Assembly (NCBI RefSeq): GCF_039904985.1
Contig: NZ_CP157005.1
Coordinates: 2,542,001-2,606,000, forward strand
DNA: 64,000 bases
Reading direction: 5' to 3'
Source of the DNA: Methylomonas sp. AM2-LC
GTDB taxonomy: Bacteria; Pseudomonadota; Gammaproteobacteria; Methylococcales; Methylomonadaceae
The position numbers and the translations under genes were made by a program. Below the pieces are notes generated by a model, which was not told the DNA's origin, did no database searches, and saw only the letters and a program-made list of their open reading frames with translations. Shown here in pieces: positions 4,821 to 14,542 of the stretch. How positions within the stretch are numbered: position 1 is the stretch's first letter; the number at the start of each line of letters is the position of its first letter.

Positions 4821-5590
4821 GGCTTTGTTGAATAAATCAGAAATTAGGCGAGTTTGACCGTCGGCGGCCCTAATTCAAATTTTAACAGACACAGGCATGC
4901 CTAAGCAGGTCATCCGATTGAGCGCAACGGCACTTGCCCAAGCCTCCGCTTTTTGTTGCGGCAGTTGACGCGCTTTCATCGTATTGCCAAAAATCCGCTT
5001 GTAGCGTTGCATGGCTAATTCAACATGACTGCGTAAACCATACTCGATTTTCTTCTGCCAGGCAATACGGCCGAGCTGTTCAATATCATGAATGTGCTGG
5101 TCGCGCTGTGTGTTGCTTGCGAGTGAACAAACAGCCGTTTTGTGCGGTGGAACGACCACTTTTGCTGCGGGTTGTTTGTCTAAAACAGCTCGCGATATGG
5201 GTTCGCCATCGTAGGCACCAACGCCCATGAACGTGTCGAAAGTGCTGTCAATTTGATCTAAAAGATCGGGAACCGCCGAGGTGTCGCCCACTTCTGGCGT
5301 AGTGAGTTCACAGGCCAGTACTTGATGGTTTTCATCAATAGCCAGATGCGGTTTACGCCAAGTGCGCCGGGCCGGTACATCGTGTTTTTCTTGATGCCAT
5401 TCGTCTTTACCATAGATCTTGAGCCCTGTAGAATCAACAATGACGAAACTACCAGGTTCCAACGCTTTGGTTAAGGCATGCCGAGGCAAAGCCACGCTAC
5501 GTTTGGAAATGCTACTGAAATCTGGAATGGTGATGTTCGCTTTCAGCACACGAGCCAGAGATATCATAAAGCCTTCCGCTTGGCGTAACG
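4821..5590 (-). mobile_element. Truncated IS5-family element, IS903 group
   Basis: The outer end at 4821-4838 reads GGCTTTGTTGAATAAATC, which is the terminal inverted repeat known from IS903-type members of the IS5 family. The transposase 5' part and the other inverted repeat are missing. IS homology begins abruptly at about 5590, where the broken vapC gene ends. The element can therefore no longer move by itself. Confidence 0.8.
4875..5567 (-). pseudogene. IS903-type DDE transposase, N-terminus missing
   Basis: The 230-residue frame holds the catalytic region of an IS5-family DDE transposase. The first Asp is in FVIVDSTGLKIYG, the second in MGVGAYDGEP, and the last acidic residue lies in the Y-(2)-R-(3)-E pattern around YGLRSHVELAMQRYKR. 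A complete protein is about 300 residues, so roughly 80-100 N-terminal residues are absent. The frame remains open upstream of the first ATG for nine codons (PLRQAEGF, part of the normal protein) and then hits a stop at the junction with vapC. It is a remnant. Confidence 0.8.
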
Positions 5591-5591
5591 G

Positions 5592-5894
5592 CTAGCGGCG
5601 ATCATCATGTCGAGTGATGCCAACCGACATGCAAGAAGCACGTAAATCGCCATAAACGGTGGAAACTTGATCGTCCCAGGGCAATGTCTCAACACGAAAA
5701 AGAAATTCACGGATAAGTTTTGCAAGGGTGGCCGGATGCCCCTTGCGGGCTAAGCCATATAAAAGTTCGCCTTGTGTGACTGCGGATATGGTAATACCGT
5801 CCATCGGTAGCGACTCCAGCCGGTTACGAATCTCCGGGGGATGGCTTTTGATAATATAACTGGCCATATTTGTATCCAGCATATAACGTATCAA
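5592..5894 (-). pseudogene. vapC: VapC-type PIN-domain toxin, frameshifted and truncated
   Basis: The N-terminal part is a normal VapC ribonuclease: MLDTN with the first acidic residue, SAVTQGELLYGL with the conserved Glu, and DDQVSTVYGDLR. After MSVGI the frame changes, and the expected SLDMMIAA motif is found in the next frame at about 5594-5618. VapC similarity then ends where the IS903-type transposase begins. The encoded 100 residues lack the third acidic site and the C-terminal helix of a ~130-residue VapC, so nuclease activity should be lost. The start overlaps the vapB stop as ATGA. Confidence 0.8.
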
Positions 5895-6130
5895 AACAAA
5901 TCCCTTTCTTGGTTCGGCAGGTCTTCGCGATCTGCCATGAAATCAGCCGGAATCTTTGTGCGGTCGGCAAGCTCGAAAAATTCCGCCCAGGATGCCAGTT
6001 TGGGCGACAGTATAACTTCGCCAGTCATGGGATCACGACGAATAAATACTTCCGCCCCTGGAAAACGGAATTCTTTCGGAAGCCGTAGTGCTTTCCGGCC
6101 TGTGATAAATAACTTCGCAGTCGTATGCAT
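5891..6130 (-). CDS. vapB: VapB-type AbrB/MazE-fold antitoxin
   Basis: This 79-residue antitoxin of the VapBC family has an N-terminal swapped-hairpin DNA-binding domain (AKLFITGRKALRLPKEF) and a C-terminal toxin-binding tail rich in acidic residues and ending ADREDLPNQERDLF. I chose ATG 6130 because an AGGGG site lies just upstream and family members start with M-x-T-A-K-L-F; the frame open to 6187 would add an unusual leader. It appears intact while its toxin partner is broken, so it may persist as an autonomous repressor. An inverted repeat at 6163-6183 is the likely operator. Confidence 0.82.
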   Translation of the reverse strand: MHTTAKLFITGRKALRLPKEFRFPGAEVFIRRDPMTGEVILSPKLASWAEFFELADRTKIPADFMADREDLPNQERDLF

Positions 6131-6162
6131 ACTAACCCCTATCATTAAATAGATATCAAGAG

Positions 6163-6183
6163 TATATAACGGGTTGGTATATA
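6163..6183. promoter_or_regulatory. Probable VapB operator (imperfect palindrome)
   Basis: The arms TATATAAC and GGTATATA are separated by five bases and pair with one mismatch. The site lies 33 bases upstream of the vapB start, where autoregulatory operators of vapBC operons are usually found. Confidence 0.45.
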
Positions 6184-6450
6184 TCAATGATATTTATCTG
6201 TTTGGTTCGATAAGGGTAACCCCCAAAAGTGTTAGTTCTGATCTAAGCCACTTTCCATCAGTACCGTTTTAAATATTTTTTCAAGTTCATACGGCTAATT
6301 TTAAATGTTTTTTTAACAGGCTAGATTTGAAACCTAATTTCTGAAAGTCTATAGGTTCGTCATGCTGGTTCAAAAAAACGAGGGTTTGGCTGGACTGATT
6401 TCCCTGTCAAAAAAAATCCGCATCTTACGCCAGTTTATGTAAGATAGGAT

Positions 6451-6686
6451 GACCGTAAGGATTGCACCGTAAATGGGCAATAGCGGCTATTCTCATGCGT
6501 ATATAGCTTCTAGATGGGGTATTCTTCCATATTTGACATCGTTTTGTGAATTTTATAAGTTATTTAAGCGAAAGATTTGGTATGCTAAAGCCAATTATTG
6601 GCAAAATATAGTGATTTTTACGTCAAATAATCCTAAATCACCTGATTTTGTTTACTATTACCCATTTACGGTGCAATCCTTACGGT
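6451..6686. mobile_element. 236 bp miniature inverted-repeat element
   Basis: The ends are inverted copies over 34 bases with one mismatch: GACCGTAAGGATTGC at 6451 and its complement ending at 6686. The interior is AT-rich and encodes no transposase. No clear target duplication was found. The frame that spans most of it (6473-6694) is a by-product of the repeat and is not counted as a gene. Confidence 0.75.
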
Positions 6687-6690
6687 CCCC

Positions 6691-6864
6691 CTAATAGACA
6701 ATGTAACGAATGGTTGGTTTTCTGGGACAACTAATGGATCCTCTAGTGCCGCCGGATCGAATAGTGTCGATGCTGCTGCTACAAATAGCGAAGCTGATGG
6801 AGGCTTTGTCCTTTATCCGAATATGTCAAATACTAATCAACTGCAAAGTGTTTATAGAAAATAA
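6691..6864 (+). pseudogene. C-terminal end of a larger secreted or surface protein
   Basis: Directly after the miniature element, a frame open without a start encodes 57 residues of convincing coding character (NGWFSGTTNGSSSAAGSN, VDAAATNSEADGG) ending LYPNMSNTNQLQSVYRK. It is rich in Ser, Thr, Gly and Asn, like the C-terminus of an exported protein. The 5' part of the gene is not found across the element. The last seven codons contain the 20 bp sequence that reappears at 7481-7500 before the next cassette gene. It may be the tail of the protein whose partners are encoded by the two cassettes downstream. Confidence 0.5.
6842..6861 (+). repeat. 20 bp cassette-boundary repeat, copy 1
   Basis: TGCAAAGTGTTTATAGAAAA is identical to 7481-7500. 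Here it lies in the last codons of the C-terminal fragment and eight bases before the first cassette gene. Confidence 0.8.
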
Positions 6865-6868
6865 TCTC

Positions 6869-7195
6869 ATGCAAATGATACTAAATATTATTCTAGTAAT
6901 AACTTTTTTAGTTTTGCTTATTTATTGCCTTGTTTATACTGCTCTATTTATTATTTCATTGGCTCAGTTTTTGTTCAATTTACCTAATAGTGAGCATGAA
7001 AGGCAAGTTAAGATTAATGGGATATTTTCATATTTCCCTCAATTTATTTTGTTTTCAGAATATTTAGATTCACCACATAAAGAAAATGCAAAATTGGTAG
7101 TAAGAAGATTTATTTTAATATTGATTTTATGGTCACTTTTTTTTATTTTAAAGTTTGTCATAGATAATGATTTTTTAATGTCTTTAAAAAAGTAA
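6869..7195 (+). CDS. Hypothetical membrane protein of cassette 1
   Basis: This small membrane protein (108 residues from ATG 6869) has a long hydrophobic stretch at residues 3-35 (IILVITFLVLLIYCLVYTALFI). A soluble loop follows (NLPNSEHERQVKINGIF, SEYLDSPHKENAKL), then a second membrane segment near the C-terminus (FILILILWSLFFILKFVI). A longer frame opens at 6710, but its first 53 codons run over the neighbouring C-terminal fragment in another frame, so I prefer the ATG five bases after that stop codon. The family is unknown. Its position directly behind a protein C-terminus, inside a repeated cassette, recalls immunity proteins of polymorphic toxins, but that is inference. Confidence 0.55.
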   Translation: MQMILNIILVITFLVLLIYCLVYTALFIISLAQFLFNLPNSEHERQVKINGIFSYFPQFILFSEYLDSPHKENAKLVVRRFILILILWSLFFILKFVIDNDFLMSLKK

Positions 7196-7393
7196 GAATA
7201 CAACCTATTTGGTGCTAACTTATCAAGAGAAAATGTAATTTTTAGGGCAACACTTTTGGGAGCACGGTTACTTTGTTTAGAGGGTTAGTACGGATGAGAC
7301 GATGATCAGAGAATACATTCATCAAGAGCTATAACATCGAAGAACTGAACAACACCTTTTAGGTGGCAATTAAATATCTTGGGAGAATAGGGG
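7196..7393. other. Non-coding tail of cassette 1
   Basis: No gene is seen here. The stretch lies between the membrane protein stop and the first cassette hairpin. Confidence 0.5.
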
Positions 7394-7463
7394 ACGTACC
7401 ACTAAATAAAAAACATGGTGGTACGTCTGTTAAAAGATGAAATTCAGCGTCCTAAAAAATAAG
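7394..7463 (+). repeat. Cassette-end hairpin repeat, copy 1
   Basis: This segment aligns with 8041-8110. The inverted core ACGTACCAC...GTGGTACGT is followed by the shared bases CTGTTAAA and GATGAAAT. It lies about 200 bases after the first cassette gene and may act as a terminator or a recombination site. Confidence 0.75.
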
Positions 7464-7480
7464 GGGTGTACCACTATAAA

Positions 7481-7500
7481 TGCAAAGTGTTTATAGAAAA
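7481..7500 (+). repeat. 20 bp cassette-boundary repeat, copy 2
   Basis: Identical to 6842-6861, 639 bases downstream. It lies 87 bases before the lipoprotein gene of cassette 2 and is not in a recognisable coding frame. Confidence 0.8.
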
Positions 7501-7587
7501 CTATAATAATTTTTGCATATTTTTAATATGGTCTATGAATAAGTGCATGGAAAAATTAATGATTGAACGAGGCTCGGATATTAATAT

Positions 7588-8025
7588 ATGCGCTTGTTAA
7601 AGTCTTTATTTATAAGGTTTACTTTATTTATTATTATTTTAGCAGTTATTGTTTTATTGACTGGATGCATTCCTGGACATTTAAAAGTTTCTATTAATAA
7701 CACTGAAGCAGTGCCAGTACTTAGTAGTAATGTTTTGCCAGTGTTTAATATTGATCAAGAAACTGGTCGTTGTGAAAAAAGTGATGATTCCGTTTTAATA
7801 GGTAGAGTTTCGGTTGATAAGATCAATTACGGTAAGCATAGGACAATGTGGTCCCTTTCGGCTGAGAAAGATGAAGTTCCACTTAATAAGCTTGAATATG
7901 GATATGTACCTAAAGGGTTTCATGAGTTAGAAAAAGCTGAGCCTCTTGCTCTTAGTGGAGAATATGTAATTGTAGTTTCTTCTGGGTATGGGTGTACTGG
8001 TCAACTTTATTTTTACATTAAGTAA
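7588..8025 (+). CDS. Lipoprotein of cassette 2, immunity-protein-like
   Basis: This 145-residue protein has a lipoprotein signal: basic start, hydrophobic core and lipobox LLTGC with Cys27. The mature part is a compact beta-rich domain with HLKVSINNTEAVP near the start, two or three further cysteines (ETGRCEKS, GYGCTG) and the strand SGEYVIVVSSGYGC near the end. This is reminiscent of the small periplasmic lipoproteins predicted as immunity factors for secretion-system toxins, where a short Ig-like domain follows the lipobox; I cannot confirm that family here. No cognate toxin is encoded next to it. Confidence 0.6.
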   Translation: MRLLKSLFIRFTLFIIILAVIVLLTGCIPGHLKVSINNTEAVPVLSSNVLPVFNIDQETGRCEKSDDSVLIGRVSVDKINYGKHRTMWSLSAEKDEVPLNKLEYGYVPKGFHELEKAEPLALSGEYVIVVSSGYGCTGQLYFYIK

Positions 8026-8040
8026 TAAAAACAATGGGAA

Positions 8041-8110
8041 ACGTACCACCATTAAATAATATGGTGGTACGTCTGTTAAATGATGAAATCCAGCATCGAA
8101 ACAAATAGGT
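8041..8110 (+). repeat. Cassette-end hairpin repeat, copy 2
   Basis: The arms ACGTACCACCAT and ATGGTGGTACGT (12 bp, perfect) flank TAAATAAT. The 3' side matches copy 1 through to AAATAGG. It lies 15 bases after the lipoprotein stop codon. Confidence 0.8.
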
Positions 8111-8218
8111 TGGTGAATCAAAGGCCAATTTGATTGATAAGTTGCCGATCAGGCTGACATGGTTTTAAGCAGGGAAATGAAACTAGAAACTCATATTTAG
8201 ATAATTTAAGGAACTCCT

Positions 8219-8479
8219 ATGAAAGTAAAAGTGTTATCAGCAGCTATTGCCACTGTGCTTATAGTTGACGTTTTTTATCAAAACCTACAAGCTGCTACGG
8301 CAACGACTGGGGTTACAGTCACCGTACCCACGGCTGCGGTCAGCATTAATCTGGCAGGTTCTTCCGAACAGGACAGATTGCTTCAATCTATTTTAAGTGG
8401 TGATATTTGTACCACCGGATCGTTGGTGATCTTTAAAGACAACGATGGCAGCACCGCTAATACCACATACTGGGGATAG
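8219..8479 (+). CDS. Small exported protein, possibly truncated
   Basis: This 86-residue frame has a signal peptide (VLSAAIATVLIVDVFYQ, cut after NLQA near residue 26) and a Thr/Val-rich mature part (TTGVTVTVPTAAVSINL). It ends abruptly with TTYWG after ICTTGSLVIFKDNDG. A ribosome site AAGGAA lies seven bases upstream. The short length and abrupt end suggest the front part of a once larger exported protein, but no continuation was found in another frame. No function is assigned. Confidence 0.45.
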   Translation: MKVKVLSAAIATVLIVDVFYQNLQAATATTGVTVTVPTAAVSINLAGSSEQDRLLQSILSGDICTTGSLVIFKDNDGSTANTTYWG

Positions 8480-8668
8480 TTACCACATAGCTGCCAAAAG
8501 TGCCATATTTCAATATTTTAATTATTAATCAATAACTTAAGACTTTTTCATGTTTTAACCAATGTTGCATTGCTAAACCACAAAATACCTAAAATCACTC
8601 TCAATAGGCTTGTTTTCTATTTATGATAGACTGCGTTTGGGATGCTTTAGGTTAAGTTTAACCAAGAT

Positions 8669-9132
8669 GGGGTTATTGAACCAAAAGAACGGTTTGTTCC
8701 AGGCACATCTTGAAACCCACGGTACTCGCGGCTTGCAGCCGAAATATTGATTTTAATGTCGTCCACGGTGTTACTAGTAACTTATTGTATTTTAATAACA
8801 TTTGTCGTATCACAACATTCATGCGTTCTATTAGTATTGCCTGTTATTTTACGGTAAATAGCATAATAATTGGGAAAATACCTTAAAATGAGCTTACAGA
8901 AATTTTTAAAAAGGTTGCGAAGCCTAGTCGCTATTCATAACTCATTGAAATATAAATAAAATAGCATAAACCAGTTTCATGAATCTCAGTATAAGGTAAA
9001 AATAGTTTATTTTCAATATGTTATGAAAATTTTCATAGACTGATTCAAGATCGATATTTCCGCTATAAGCTGCTAACAGCAATGGCTCCAGGGGTGTCGT
9101 GGGACAAACCGTTCTTTTGGTTCAATAACCCC
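8669..9132. mobile_element. 464 bp miniature element, copy 1
   Basis: It begins GGGGTTATTGAACC and ends with the inverted complement; the terminal repeats are perfect over 29 bases and extend to about 33 with one mismatch. It encodes no protein. Copy 2 at 9761-10224 is the same length and, as far as I can read, identical and in the same orientation. GGGG ends and long terminal repeats fit the miniature elements derived from Tn3-family transposons, but no 5 bp target duplication is visible. Its last base supplies part of the stop codon of the relaxase fragment. Confidence 0.85.
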
Positions 9133-9758
9133 TATTTGATTTCCTTGGCCCGTTGCTCGTGCCATTCTTGTAAAGCCTGGTCGTAGGGTGTTGGGTTTTC
9201 CCTGGGCGGGGCGGTGGTTTCATAGCGGGAGTCAGTCGTTAATTGCTGTATTTTTTGCAGCGGCGGCAGTTCGATAAAATCGCGGCTGAAGGCGGCGTCA
9301 CGCAGATTGATACCTTTGCCGTCTCCGCCGGCGTGGGGTTTTACCCAGAGGTATTCGTTGTCTTTTCCTGCGTTCCGGATTTTGACTTCGCCCTGTTCGG
9401 CCAACAGTTTTTTAAAGTCGTCGTAGTTGGTTATCTGCCGTTCCAGTAGCTCGGTCAGCAGGACGCTTTTAAAGGCCTTGTTGCCGCCTTTGAAGGTGTC
9501 GCCCTTATAGCGGCTGAGCATTTCCGAGTCGTCGGTGAATAAAGCCCGGCGGTTGTCCTTGGGGCTGGCTAGGCCGTAGCGGTTGTTGAGGGTTTCCTGG
9601 ATGGCTTCCAGGTATTTGACCTGCCGTTCGACCAGGCCGAACGGATTAAGGCTTTCGCCTGATAGCAGGTTGTATTTAGGGATGACGATATGGATGTGGG
9701 GTTTGCGTTCTACCCGTTCGCCGGTTTTGGCGTGGGTATAGCTTTTAATTCTCGGTAG
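9132..9758 (-). pseudogene. Relaxase/mobilisation nuclease fragment
   Basis: The reverse frame is open from the edge of miniature-element copy 2 to the edge of copy 1 and codes for 208 residues. Near its start it has KPHIHIVIPKYN, the H-x-H metal-binding motif of HUH relaxases. LNPFGLVERQVKYLEAIQ and a charged linker follow, then IELPPLQKIQQL. The catalytic Tyr region, normally N-terminal, is missing, as is the C-terminus. An internal ATG at 9521 is not the true start. The fragment is richer in G and C than its surroundings, which suggests it came from a plasmid or integrative element. Confidence 0.8.
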
Positions 9759-9760
9759 AT

Positions 9761-10224
9761 GGGGTTATTGAACCAAAAGAACGGTTTGTTCCAGGCACAT
9801 CTTGAAACCCACGGTACTCGCGGCTTGCAGCCGAAATATTGATTTTAATGTCGTCCACGGTGTTACTAGTAACTTATTGTATTTTAATAACATTTGTCGT
9901 ATCACAACATTCATGCGTTCTATTAGTATTGCCTGTTATTTTACGGTAAATAGCATAATAATTGGGAAAATACCTTAAAATGAGCTTACAGAAATTTTTA
10001 AAAAGGTTGCGAAGCCTAGTCGCTATTCATAACTCATTGAAATATAAATAAAATAGCATAAACCAGTTTCATGAATCTCAGTATAAGGTAAAAATAGTTT
10101 ATTTTCAATATGTTATGAAAATTTTCATAGACTGATTCAAGATCGATATTTCCGCTATAAGCTGCTAACAGCAATGGCTCCAGGGGTGTCGTGGGACAAA
10201 CCGTTCTTTTGGTTCAATAACCCC
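9761..10224. mobile_element. 464 bp miniature element, copy 2
   Basis: Same sequence, length and orientation as copy 1 (8669-9132). The outer flanks of the pair (AAGAT on the left, AATTT on the right) do not match, so simple insertion as a composite unit is not demonstrated. Confidence 0.85.
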
Positions 10225-10284
10225 AATTTAAATTCCCTAAAATTTCACGGTCAGAACGGGCTACTTTTGAGAAGCCTAAAAAAA

Positions 10285-11583: not shown

Positions 11584-11877
11584 TTAATAACCCGCTTTTT
11601 TTTGGTGTCGAAAAGCAAGAATGTAAACCGAATTGGTTTCTACATTATATTGATACAAAGCCACATAGCCGGCATCACCGAATTCAATGACCAGTTCGCG
11701 TAACTCAGGAATATCGTCGAATGGGCGACCAAGCTCTGGGTCTGACTCCAAAAATTCAAAGGTACGAGCGATTGTTTGACCGGCACGACGCGCTGCTTGT
11801 GGATTTTTTTCAGCCAAAAATTGCCGACAACGTTCTAATCCCTGTGCAGCACCTGCCGTAATAATTACTCGTGGCAC
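11584..11877 (-). CDS. ParE/RelE-superfamily toxin
   Basis: This 97-residue toxin is of normal length for the ParE/RelE superfamily. Visible family features are the N-terminal basic helix region (AAQGLERCRQFLAEKNPQAARR), the central LGRPFDDIPELRELVIEF, and the terminal strands YVALYQYN and VYILAFRHQKKAGY, which include the conserved Arg/His positions before the end. ParE-type members poison gyrase while RelE-type members cut mRNA; the missing catalytic signature prevents a choice. Its start overlaps the antitoxin gene by 13 bases, so translation is probably coupled. Confidence 0.85.
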   Translation of the reverse strand: MPRVIITAGAAQGLERCRQFLAEKNPQAARRAGQTIARTFEFLESDPELGRPFDDIPELRELVIEFGDAGYVALYQYNVETNSVYILAFRHQKKAGY

Positions 11878-12137
11878 TTAGGTATTTCCTTTTCTTGATC
11901 AGTACCCCATGTAGTTAGCCAGTCTCGAACTTCTTGGCCGGTTAGGTGTTGCCCTGTTTCCTGATAAGTTTTCCACGAAGTCAGAGCTTCCTGCTTGAAG
12001 TTTTCTCTCGCTTCTTCACGACTTACATAATCATTAATCGCTTCGCGCATGATCCAATGCGGCGAACGATTTCTCAAGTCAGCCAAATTCCGAATTCGAT
12101 TTTTTAATCCATCATCAAGCTTGATCGATGTTGCCAT
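11865..12137 (-). CDS. Ribbon-helix-helix antitoxin (CopG/ParD-like)
   Basis: This 90-residue antitoxin is the partner of the overlapping ParE-like toxin. Residues 1-45 form a ribbon-helix-helix: MATSIKLDDGLKNRIRNLA, then SPHWIMREAINDYVSREE. A charged C-terminal tail (residues 50-90) would wrap the toxin. It precedes the toxin gene, as usual for ParDE. An AGGACTTCG stretch before the ATG offers only a weak ribosome site. Confidence 0.82.
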   Translation of the reverse strand: MATSIKLDDGLKNRIRNLADLRNRSPHWIMREAINDYVSREEARENFKQEALTSWKTYQETGQHLTGQEVRDWLTTWGTDQEKEIPKCHE

Positions 12138-12346: not shown

Positions 12347-12961
12347 ATGCTAATTGGCTACATGCGGATCTCAAAAGCGGATGGTTCTCAGGTCTGCCAT
12401 TTACAGCGCGATGCACTCGTTGCGGCTGGAGTTGATCCCATGCAAATTTATGAGGATCAGGCATCTGGTAAACGGGAAGATCGTCCTGGCTTAGCGGCTT
12501 GCATCAAGGCATTGCGTGATGGGGATACTCTTCTTGTGTGGAAACTGGATCGATTGGGTCGTGATCTACGTCATTTGATTAATACGGTGCATGATCTAAC
12601 GGGTCGAGGTGTTGGCTTAAAGGTTTTAACTGGCCAAGGTGCTGCTATTGATACCACTACTGCTGCTGGTAAATTGGTCTTTGGCATATTCGCTGCACTT
12701 TCCGAGTTTGAACGTGAACTTATTTCAGAGCGAACAGTTGCTGGATTGGCATCGGCTCGTGCTCGCGGTAGAAAAGGTGGGCGTCCATTTAAGATGACAG
12801 CTGCCAAACTTAGGCTTGCTATGGCGGCTATGGGGCATCCAGAAACAACAGTCGGTAATCTTTGTAAAGAATTGGGGATTACTCGGCAGACTTTGTACCG
12901 ACATGTTTCACCCAAAGGAGAGCTTCGTCAGGATGGTATGAAGTTACTATCTAGTGGCTAA
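12347..12961 (+). CDS. Serine recombinase, Tn3-resolvase/invertase type
   Basis: This 204-residue site-specific recombinase should resolve or invert DNA between res-like sites. The catalytic serine is Ser9 in IGYMRISKADG. The conserved core LLVWKLDRLGRDLRHL (residues 65-80), TTAAGKLVFGIFAALSEFERELISERT (about 104-130) and the C-terminal helix-turn-helix (TVGNLCKELGITRQTLYRHV) are all present, and the length is typical for Tn3-family TnpR. No Tn3 TnpA is in the window, so it is either a leftover of a lost transposon or a free-standing resolvase. It might act on the GGGG-ended miniature elements nearby, though this is speculative. Confidence 0.9.
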   Translation: MLIGYMRISKADGSQVCHLQRDALVAAGVDPMQIYEDQASGKREDRPGLAACIKALRDGDTLLVWKLDRLGRDLRHLINTVHDLTGRGVGLKVLTGQGAAIDTTTAAGKLVFGIFAALSEFERELISERTVAGLASARARGRKGGRPFKMTAAKLRLAMAAMGHPETTVGNLCKELGITRQTLYRHVSPKGELRQDGMKLLSSG

Positions 12962-13820: not shown

Positions 13821-14111
13821 ATGCACGTTATCGCAAAACCCATGCTTATCGAATTTTGGTCGAAACACCCTGCCGCTGAAAAGCTGCTGCAGGCGTGGTA
13901 TCGATTGATGGAAAGCGAAGTCTTTAGAGACTTTAACCATCTTAAAGCGACTTTTGCGAGTGCTGATTATGTGGACGGATTGACGGTGTTTGATATTGGC
14001 GGCAACAAGTTTCGCTTGATTGCGGCTATTCATTACAATTGGCACAAAGTCTATATTCGTGCGGTATTAACCCATGCAGAGTATGACACGAATGCCTGGA
14101 AAAAGAGGTGA
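13821..14111 (+). CDS. higB: HigB-type mRNA interferase toxin
   Basis: This 96-residue toxin of the HigB group (RelE superfamily) cleaves mRNA on the ribosome. Family features are LIEFWSKHPAAEKLLQAWY at the N-terminus, the central ADYVDGLTVFDIGGNKFRLI, and the C-terminal IHYNWHKVYIRAVLTHAEYD, which holds the conserved His and Tyr. The toxin gene comes first, the usual order for higBA. Its stop overlaps the antitoxin start. No start better than ATG 13821 exists, and the region before it is palindromic rather than a clear ribosome site. Confidence 0.9.
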   Translation: MHVIAKPMLIEFWSKHPAAEKLLQAWYRLMESEVFRDFNHLKATFASADYVDGLTVFDIGGNKFRLIAAIHYNWHKVYIRAVLTHAEYDTNAWKKR

Positions 14112-14542
14112 TAACGATGAGATACGCAACTAAATCCGTTCCCGAACCAAAAGCCATCTTACAAGCCTGGTTACCTTTCAAAGAATTAGTTGGCGTGACC
14201 GGCGTTCATAGTGAAGAAGACTATGCTCAAGCCTGTGCCACAATTGACGTTTTGTTGGATGAAGTGGGGGATGATGAAAACCACCCGCTGGCTGACGTGC
14301 TTGATTACTTGGCTGACCAAGTCAAATCTTATGAAGATGAAAACTTCGTCATTCCAGAAGCCGAACCCAATGAAGTCTTGAAATTCCTAATGGAACAGCG
14401 CGGCCTTAAACAAGACGATTTAGGCGATATCGCCCCCCAAGGTCGAATATCCGACATCCTGACCGGTAAGCGTTCCATTAGCAAAGAAATCGCTAAAAAA
14501 TTAGCTACTCGCTTTCACGTTCGAGCCGATGTATTCCTATAG
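14108..14542 (+). CDS. higA: HigA-type antitoxin
   Basis: The 144-residue product (GTG 14108; an ATG at 14117 is an alternative) has an N-terminal helical domain with an acidic middle (DEVGDDENHPLADVLDYL) and a C-terminal HTH (EVLKFLMEQRGLKQDDLGD, RISDILTGKRSISKEIAKKLATRF). This architecture is typical of the larger HigA proteins that pair with RelE-like HigB. It neutralises HigB and represses the operon through sites such as those before higB. The reading frame ends 24 bases before a chimeric hsdR remnant. Confidence 0.9.
   Translation: MITMRYATKSVPEPKAILQAWLPFKELVGVTGVHSEEDYAQACATIDVLLDEVGDDENHPLADVLDYLADQVKSYEDENFVIPEAEPNEVLKFLMEQRGLKQDDLGDIAPQGRISDILTGKRSISKEIAKKLATRFHVRADVFL

Follow-up and report, generated by a model that had tools for sequence, protein, structure and literature searches.

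Between positions 6446 and 8479 of the window (the whole stretch of 64,000 nucleotides analysed here) lie the 3' remnant of a toxin gene, two small genes, two hairpin repeats and the start of a further gene (Table 1). The host, whose family is placed in Methylococcales, is probably a methanotroph. At the left edge of this relic stands a 247-bp inverted-repeat element at which the front of the toxin module has been lost; a second copy of the element, 97% identical, was found on contig C2 of the same genome (L010:10645-10891). To the right of the relic, a 480-bp element with inverted ends occurs twice (8665-9144 and 9757-10236, 99.4% identity). Toxin-antitoxin genes are dense at 1115-2028, 5592-6187, 11584-12137 and 13821-14542 of the window, and Pfam searches revealed Xre/MbcA with RES, a PIN-domain gene with a neighbour lacking a Pfam match, ParE with a ribbon-helix-helix protein, and HigB with a helix-turn-helix protein. 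A resolvase (12347-12961) and a DDE transposase (4875-5567) were recognized in the same way.

Table 1. Features of the relic and its left edge (window coordinates).
Feature	Position	Strand	Support
MITE-like element, 39-bp terminal inverted repeats	6446..6692		inverted repeat 6445-6483/6655-6693
Orphan rhs-CT (toxin) gene, 3' remnant including stop	6692..6864	+	protein match, E 1.1e-26
Conserved C-terminal tail codons (ADGGFVLYPNMSNTNQLQSVYRK)	6793..6861	+	pattern, profile, alignment
Small membrane protein, immunity-type by position	6869..7195	+	82.5% identity to C2 gene behind orphan toxin
Hairpin repeat, copy 1	7394..7463		repeat; fold test against shuffles
Scar, 3' end of second tail, toxin gone	7473..7500	+	90% match to 6832-6861
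Lipoprotein gene, 145 aa, orphan immunity-type by position	7588..8025	+	LTGC after hydrophobic start
Hairpin repeat, copy 2	8041..8110		8029-8141 is an 83% match to L010:15033-15144 (3' flank of C2 array); fold z -4.6
Gene after C2 array (538 aa there), first 86 codons	8219..8479	+	96.5% identity; homology stops at 8475

A sequence-only reading of this region had reported a 20-mer, TGCAAAGTGTTTATAGAAAA, at 6842-6861 and again at 7481-7500, 639 bases apart, and both copies are present as described. The hairpin repeat it reported also exists at the spacing given, as an inexact repeat with copies about 84% identical. Both small genes are open frames, and the first of them (6869..7195) encodes three hydrophobic segments on a simple scale. 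The first boundary had been placed in the last codons of a gene lacking its front, which is correct, and a relative on C2 identifies these codons as the 3' end of an Rhs toxin gene. Since the window contains 1012 repeated 20-mers, against a mean of 0.05 in twenty order-2 Markov simulations of it, the rarity of the 20-mer proves little by itself. The proposed search of the rest of the genome was carried out and yielded a third exact copy, at C2:262630-262649, and with three mismatches allowed four more places, two of them at other tails. The 20-mer is the 3' end of the tail in the window and codes for its last residues, LQSVYRK. As for the hairpins, none of 200 shuffles folds better than either copy (z -4.3 and -4.6); identity with a known RNA was rejected, as Rfam gave no match.

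Contig C2 (289 kb) carries a less decayed relative of the relic, in which an Rhs core with its toxin, tail and immunity-type gene is followed by an orphan toxin, again with tail and immunity-type gene, and then by a hairpin. The first gene is an Rhs gene truncated to 663 aa (Rhs_assc_core 78 bits, cut-off 32.5), which ends in ADGGFVIYPNKSNTNQIRSVYSK and is followed by a membrane protein of 114 aa. The orphan toxin of 246 aa (L010:13913-14653) starts within the core junction, NPVNGSDPSGLD (core match E 4e-4, below the family cut-off), ends in TDGGFVLYPNMSNTNQLQSVYRK, and is followed by a small membrane protein and the hairpin. Beyond the hairpin lie a 538-aa protein with a signal-like start, the exosortase XrtM and a membrane partner. 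Window positions 6692-7189 are 92% identical to the end of this orphan plus its membrane gene (498 bp, L010:14481-14978), the toxin remnant being part of the match, and positions 8151-8475 (325 bp) are 94% identical to the start of the 538-aa gene. These two matches, to an Rhs array and its flank, already contradict the idea that the window repeats are mere local duplications among mobile elements with no link to toxins; repeated elements do flank the region on both sides, but we regard that explanation as extremely improbable.

By comparison with C2, the relic in the window is an array cut short: it retains two immunity-type genes but not a single complete toxin. The C2 orphan combines a toxin bearing a piece of the core with an immunity-type gene, as expected of an orphan rhs-CT/immunity module; the window copy has lost the core piece. 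The Rhs class markers, YD repeats and the Rhs-associated core domain (TIGR03696 and PF05593), are above cut-off in the C2 and C1 proteins of this genome, and the window remnant has no core. An additional unit of the window, absent from C2, consists of a hairpin copy, the 20-bp tail scar and the lipoprotein gene. No relatives of the lipoprotein were found in the other 236 of the 237 family genomes, in the plasmid collection or elsewhere in the collected loci, so that no homologue of it stands next to a toxin in the material searched, which speaks against its being an immunity gene left by a lost toxin.

A profile search revealed seven tail places in this genome. Besides the one in the window, C2 carries two and C3 an identical pair; a further tail closes a 1599-aa Rhs protein, and the last closes a 300-aa frame that showed no Rhs core. 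Five of the eight Rhs core matches in the genome are tailed, and the other three have no tail place behind them. The two C3 copies (L025 and L026, at C3:75371 and C3:95529 of a 134-kb contig, about 20 kb apart) each comprise a tailed Rhs end and the same immunity-type gene, and by eye lie near transposase-like frames.

The tail comprises 23 residues at the C-terminus of Rhs polymorphic toxins, with the consensus A-x-GGF[VL][LI]YPNK-x-NTN-MMQSVYSK-stop; the form YPNKPNTN occurs in loci. A degenerate DNA pattern for it retrieved 41 stretches of the species-genome collection, representing 31 genomes besides our own (the other ten stretches come from the same record series as one of these genomes). 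Together with seven of our own genome these stretches gave 63 pattern matches; in 58 of them the Lys is immediately followed by the stop, and in five the stop comes one codon later. The pattern fixes residues, so that conservation at those residues is partly built in, and the free columns were therefore examined separately. Among 59 non-redundant tails the Gly before GF is present in all 59, the Ala two positions before that in 56, the Asn in 49 and the Lys in 46. A profile search unbound by the pattern detected 36 tail places in 18 tail genomes, two of which are fragments. It should be mentioned that in one locus (L113:5705-5911) the tail passes without a gap into a core junction (GGFVLYPNKQNNPINFNDLDGK), which looks like the scar of a fusion between two modules.

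In even genome samples the tail is rare. It was detected in four of 274 genomes of the class sample, including our own (one of the four, G051, has no stop after the match and was judged false), in four of 151 genomes of the family sample, again including our own (one at E 0.008), and in three of 398 genomes of the phylum sample, where only our own genome is convincing. The weak matches in G369, G492 and G756 (E 0.006-0.008) were judged false or ambiguous. The DNA pattern retrieved no stretches from viral contigs, the 59 tails by themselves matched no Pfam family, and the search among solved structures gave chance matches only (E 1.1 and 1.5). Three tail searches of a large protein database, with a prefilter that requires shared exact words, returned 2, 1 and 1 proteins from 4, 8 and 12 candidates; P0002 is the only new one, the rest matching our own queries at 100%.

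To what kind of Rhs protein does the tail belong? The 18 tail genomes contain 93 Rhs core matches, with a tail 400-655 bp downstream in 32 and none in 61, some of the latter being broken copies. A tree was built from 30 tailed cores and 24 tailless ones, the latter from mostly the same genomes, on columns that exclude the tail. A branch supported at 100/100 separates the tailed cores from the tailless; only with a root on the opposite side would the tailed set be a clade. At the level of sequence, this confines the tail to one group of Rhs cores. Broken copies in tail loci and rows shorter than 150 aa were left out. For the tailless set, 50 of the 61 regions were listed (short matches left out) and 40 taken, and two tailless cores of our own genome were added, one of them too short for the tree. 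Fifty of the 54 core junctions in tail loci have an in-frame tail (redundant copies counted); by coordinates, two of the other four have the tail directly behind in another frame.

The regions between core junction and tail are diverse. Fifty toxin regions form 22 sequence clusters at E<1e-3 and 33 at 1e-10. Ten of them lack a recognized junction and were represented by their last 250 residues or fewer; these may include core residues that link them, so the cluster count can only be lowered by this. In an alignment of the 50, the invariant and near-invariant columns lie at the core junction and in the tail. Pfam detected VanY in two members and Tox-REase-7, Ntox44 (23.5, below the cut-off of 24) and Chlorophyllase in one each, and at E 0.001 at least 45 of the 50 regions have no match. 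The eight residues ahead of the tail have the character of a linker, with 76% Gly, Ser, Asn, Thr, Ala and Pro, compared with 51-55% further upstream. A pretoxin segment (WDxxNVGLG...PFLPAGASAG) is common to tailed (L085, L099, L107) and tailless (L172, L173, L184) loci.

These data bear on the possibility that the toxin fold itself ends with the tail, which would then be common because the toxins are distant homologues. In its favour, single linkage unites 14 of the 50 regions, and some have the pretoxin segment in common; but the number of clusters at either threshold, the linker that precedes the tail, and three tailless Rhs proteins with the same pretoxin segment whose ends are free of the tail all speak against this explanation, which we consider unlikely.

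Candidate immunity genes follow many of the tails. An ATG frame of at least 80 aa starts -16 to +65 nt from the tail stop in 44 of 58 cases, compared with 257 of 1160 random places on the same strand; under a looser rule (ATG, GTG or TTG; 55 aa) and the same distances, a frame lies behind 53 of 59 tails but also behind 585 of 1180 random places, which weakens the evidence. By eye and on a simple scale, the first-listed frames behind the tails are of soluble, lipoprotein-like and membrane types. Thus, as in other Rhs toxins, a variable region after the DPxG junction is followed by a candidate immunity gene, with the difference that the toxin region is not at the extreme C-terminus, the 23-residue tail coming after it.

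Is the shared unit the peptide or the DNA? Within eleven groups of tails from one genome, mean identity over 60 nt is 58-80%, and 6.7 to 15 of the 20 third codon positions differ; per pair of tails, 4 to 11 codons are silently different and 1.3 to 7.3 change the residue. With so many silent differences within genomes, these comparisons demonstrate, at the level of sequence, that selection acts on the tail peptide and not on its DNA. The alternative is that the shared ends are DNA recombination sites at which immunity or toxin cassettes are exchanged. It draws on the identical 20-mers of the window and C2, on the unit inserted in the window relative to C2, and on our own genome and a Nitrospinia array, in which tails are more alike than core junctions; however, junction DNA is the more alike of the two in 12 of 20 pairs, the silent divergence is as extensive as described, and a crossover in the tail, which lies between toxin and immunity gene, would part the pair. 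We therefore give recombination at these sites little credence. DNA exchange at the 20-mer itself was rejected on the silent divergence, the comparison of junctions with tails being mixed. As the additional window unit starts behind the membrane gene and stops at the second hairpin, the hairpin region is a likelier joint than the 20-mer.

The sequence-only reading was right to see here a locus of polymorphic toxins, with C-terminal modules that have been displaced and genes of immunity type, while its proposal that the 20-bp ends recombine is not supported, given the silent tail differences and the position of the tail between toxin and immunity gene. Nor can the novelty it suggested lie in the recombination arrangement; the undescribed part is the conserved protein tail together with the operon around it.

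Related arrangements are known. In Enterobacteriaceae, orphan rhs-CT/rhsI modules lie downstream of the main rhs gene and are displaced toxin pieces that keep some core, each with its immunity gene (Koskiniemi 2014; PMC3967940), and the loci described here are similar. In the available part of that paper Rhs-CT is said to start at DPxGL and no common end is mentioned, whereas here a constant tail stands behind each toxin; the window, moreover, retains only ends and immunity-type genes. Polymorphic toxins are described as having an exchangeable toxin domain at their end, and the RHS toxins of the Sec/T2SS type possess a signal peptide, a transglutaminase domain without the full catalytic triad, RHS repeats and a variable toxin (Zhang 2012; PMC3482391). 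The available text of that paper places the toxin at the extreme C-terminus and does not mention a tail, while here 23 residues follow the toxin and the transglutaminase is often a separate gene.

Four long tailed proteins that were scanned contain DUF6531 and RHS repeats and, by eye, have signal-like starts; these Pfam scans revealed no PAAR domain. Six long forms (L071, L072, L222, L223, L225, L227), which measure 2383-3865 aa, begin with a fused transglutaminase-like domain, confirmed by Pfam in L071 and recognized by similarity in the other five. Alternatively, the transglutaminase-like protein (about 900 aa) has its own gene immediately upstream of the tailed Rhs gene. PF01841 is above cut-off in one fused protein and in six encoded by separate upstream genes; a further two from upstream, truncated by the end of the locus, have no Pfam match. 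By eye, none of the ten domains inspected has a Cys at the position indicated by what we take to be the transglutaminase motif, and hand alignment places an Asp there. Judged by their sequences, the tailed loci thus appear to have the feature of the Sec-exported RHS class, a transglutaminase domain that lacks the catalytic Cys and lies at the N-terminus or close to it.

Solved shells of T6SS Rhs effectors and of Tc C subunits offer a further comparison. The core matches solved Rhs proteins in sequence, 7q97 being the best (E 2.3e-52), but in the 27 listed sequences the best-scoring stretches end at or before query residue 974, and the tail occupies residues 1128-1150. An AlphaFold model of the last 1150 residues of the Denitromonas protein, built with 29 rows, is mostly a confident beta shell. 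Residues 901-1150, that is, toxin and tail, have a pLDDT of 20-35 and the tail is unplaced, so the model speaks neither for nor against docking of the tail.

With moderate confidence, we interpret the relic in the window as the decayed end of a Sec-exported Rhs polymorphic-toxin array and the tail as the constant C-terminal handle of a delivery chassis. The original module would have consisted of the end of an Rhs core, a variable toxin, the 23-residue tail and an immunity gene, and the two small genes of the window would be the immunity-type genes remaining once the toxins were cut away. The Rhs protein would be exported by Sec. Self-cleavage at the DPxG site occurs in other Rhs proteins, and here, too, the toxin may be freed from the shell at this site, the small genes presumably conferring immunity. 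As a handle of the chassis, tied to the toxin through the Gly/Ser-rich linker, the tail could allow any toxin placed between it and the core to be handled alike, whether held, exported or threaded.

The tail strings were not found in the literature searched, nor did we find a description of toxins sharing one short tail, a trait pointing to an unrecognised part of toxin handling. Because one tail is common to many toxins, it can serve as a marker for toxin domains of unknown family and for their immunity genes. Being only 23 codons long, it also makes the way in which Sec-exported Rhs proteins leave and enter cells experimentally approachable.

Other proteins may take part in building the chassis in some lineages, namely an exosortase dedicated to it, a surface protein of toroid/LRR type, a small exported protein and a transglutaminase-like protein that is inactive. 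Five loci (L215-L219) have one and the same order: exosortase, partner, toroid protein, small exported protein, transglutaminase-like protein without the Cys, and tailed Rhs. They belong to Aquabacterium commune (twice), A. soli, Denitromonas iodatirespirans and one unclassified bin; five of the 15 regions were picked for a nearby exosortase, so this count is not a frequency. Six further regions (L220, L222-L225, L227) contain the toroid protein and transglutaminase with the exosortase absent from the stretch, and L221, L226, L228 and L229 contain neither set, L226 and L228 being whole short contigs. In our own genome the order in L027 is toroid protein, transglutaminase, tailed Rhs, two small genes, XrtM and partner, and on the Methylomonas koyamae plasmid pLM6 the tailed Rhs gene is followed by an immunity-type gene, xrtM and partner. 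On the same plasmid (L204, NZ_CP023670.1) a tailless and the tailed Rhs gene adjoin, each with a small gene behind it, and xrtM and conjugation genes follow.

The C2 exosortase scored 183.9 bits against the XrtM model (TIGR04300, cut-off 125). Three exosortases of the five loci scored 67-73 bits, below the XrtM cut-off and above the general exosortase signature TIGR04178. Among 32 tail-bearing genomes or records, the XrtM model was above cut-off in four and without any match in 16. Conversely, no tailed Rhs was present in the stretches examined around XrtM in G091, G036 and two loci of our own genome, in one of which a tailless Rhs frame lies about 6 kb from XrtM. An exosortase is thus found beside a minority of tailed loci only, and XrtM occurs also without a nearby tailed Rhs. 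XrtM as a general partner of the tail had been dropped on account of such XrtM loci and was later partly restored by the pLM6 data, the XrtM matches among tail-bearing genomes and the five-locus data.

The signal of exosortase substrates is a tripartite C-terminus, with a motif, a membrane segment and a basic cluster. Inspection of the tail alignment by eye shows none of these parts, neither a membrane segment nor a basic end being present, and a better substrate is at hand in the same operon: by eye, the toroid proteins encoded in six loci (L215-L219, L224) have a C-terminus made up of P[LI]PLWAL followed by a hydrophobic stretch and then basic residues, which we take to resemble the known signals. 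Hence, although exosortase genes lie near tailed Rhs in two loci of our own genome, on pLM6 and in five further loci, it is improbable that the tail is the substrate signal of the neighbouring exosortase, the more so as half of the tail-bearing genomes or records examined lack any XrtM match. Our preferred reading of the tail as a handle can tentatively be extended: it is possible, though we would not yet favour it, that the tailed loci represent an Rhs delivery system in its own right, thinly spread over Pseudomonadota, Nitrospinota and Desulfobacterota (phyla according to the sequence records). In such a system the conserved shell on one side and the conserved C-terminal tail on the other would clamp the exchangeable toxins, the tail serving all of them as a universal handle for export or delivery; in some lineages the chassis would be assembled at the surface together with an exosortase dedicated to it, a protein of toroid/LRR type and a transglutaminase that is inactive.

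If true, the exosortase link would give exosortases a role in bacterial conflict, which we did not find described in the literature searched; nor was a paper found that treats XrtM together with exosortase. The word "exosortase" is absent from the searched text of Zhang 2012 (PMC3482391); in the searched text of PMC8416519 it occurs once, in a reference, and that of PMC12645872 contains an expression table in which exosortase and Rhs genes are listed separately. It should also be mentioned that about 14 kb beyond the window (L075, C1:2612000-2630000) XrtM stands beside a protein ending in VPALSEFG and a hydrophobic stretch; no Rhs frame was seen in this locus, and XrtM seems to have further partners in our genome.
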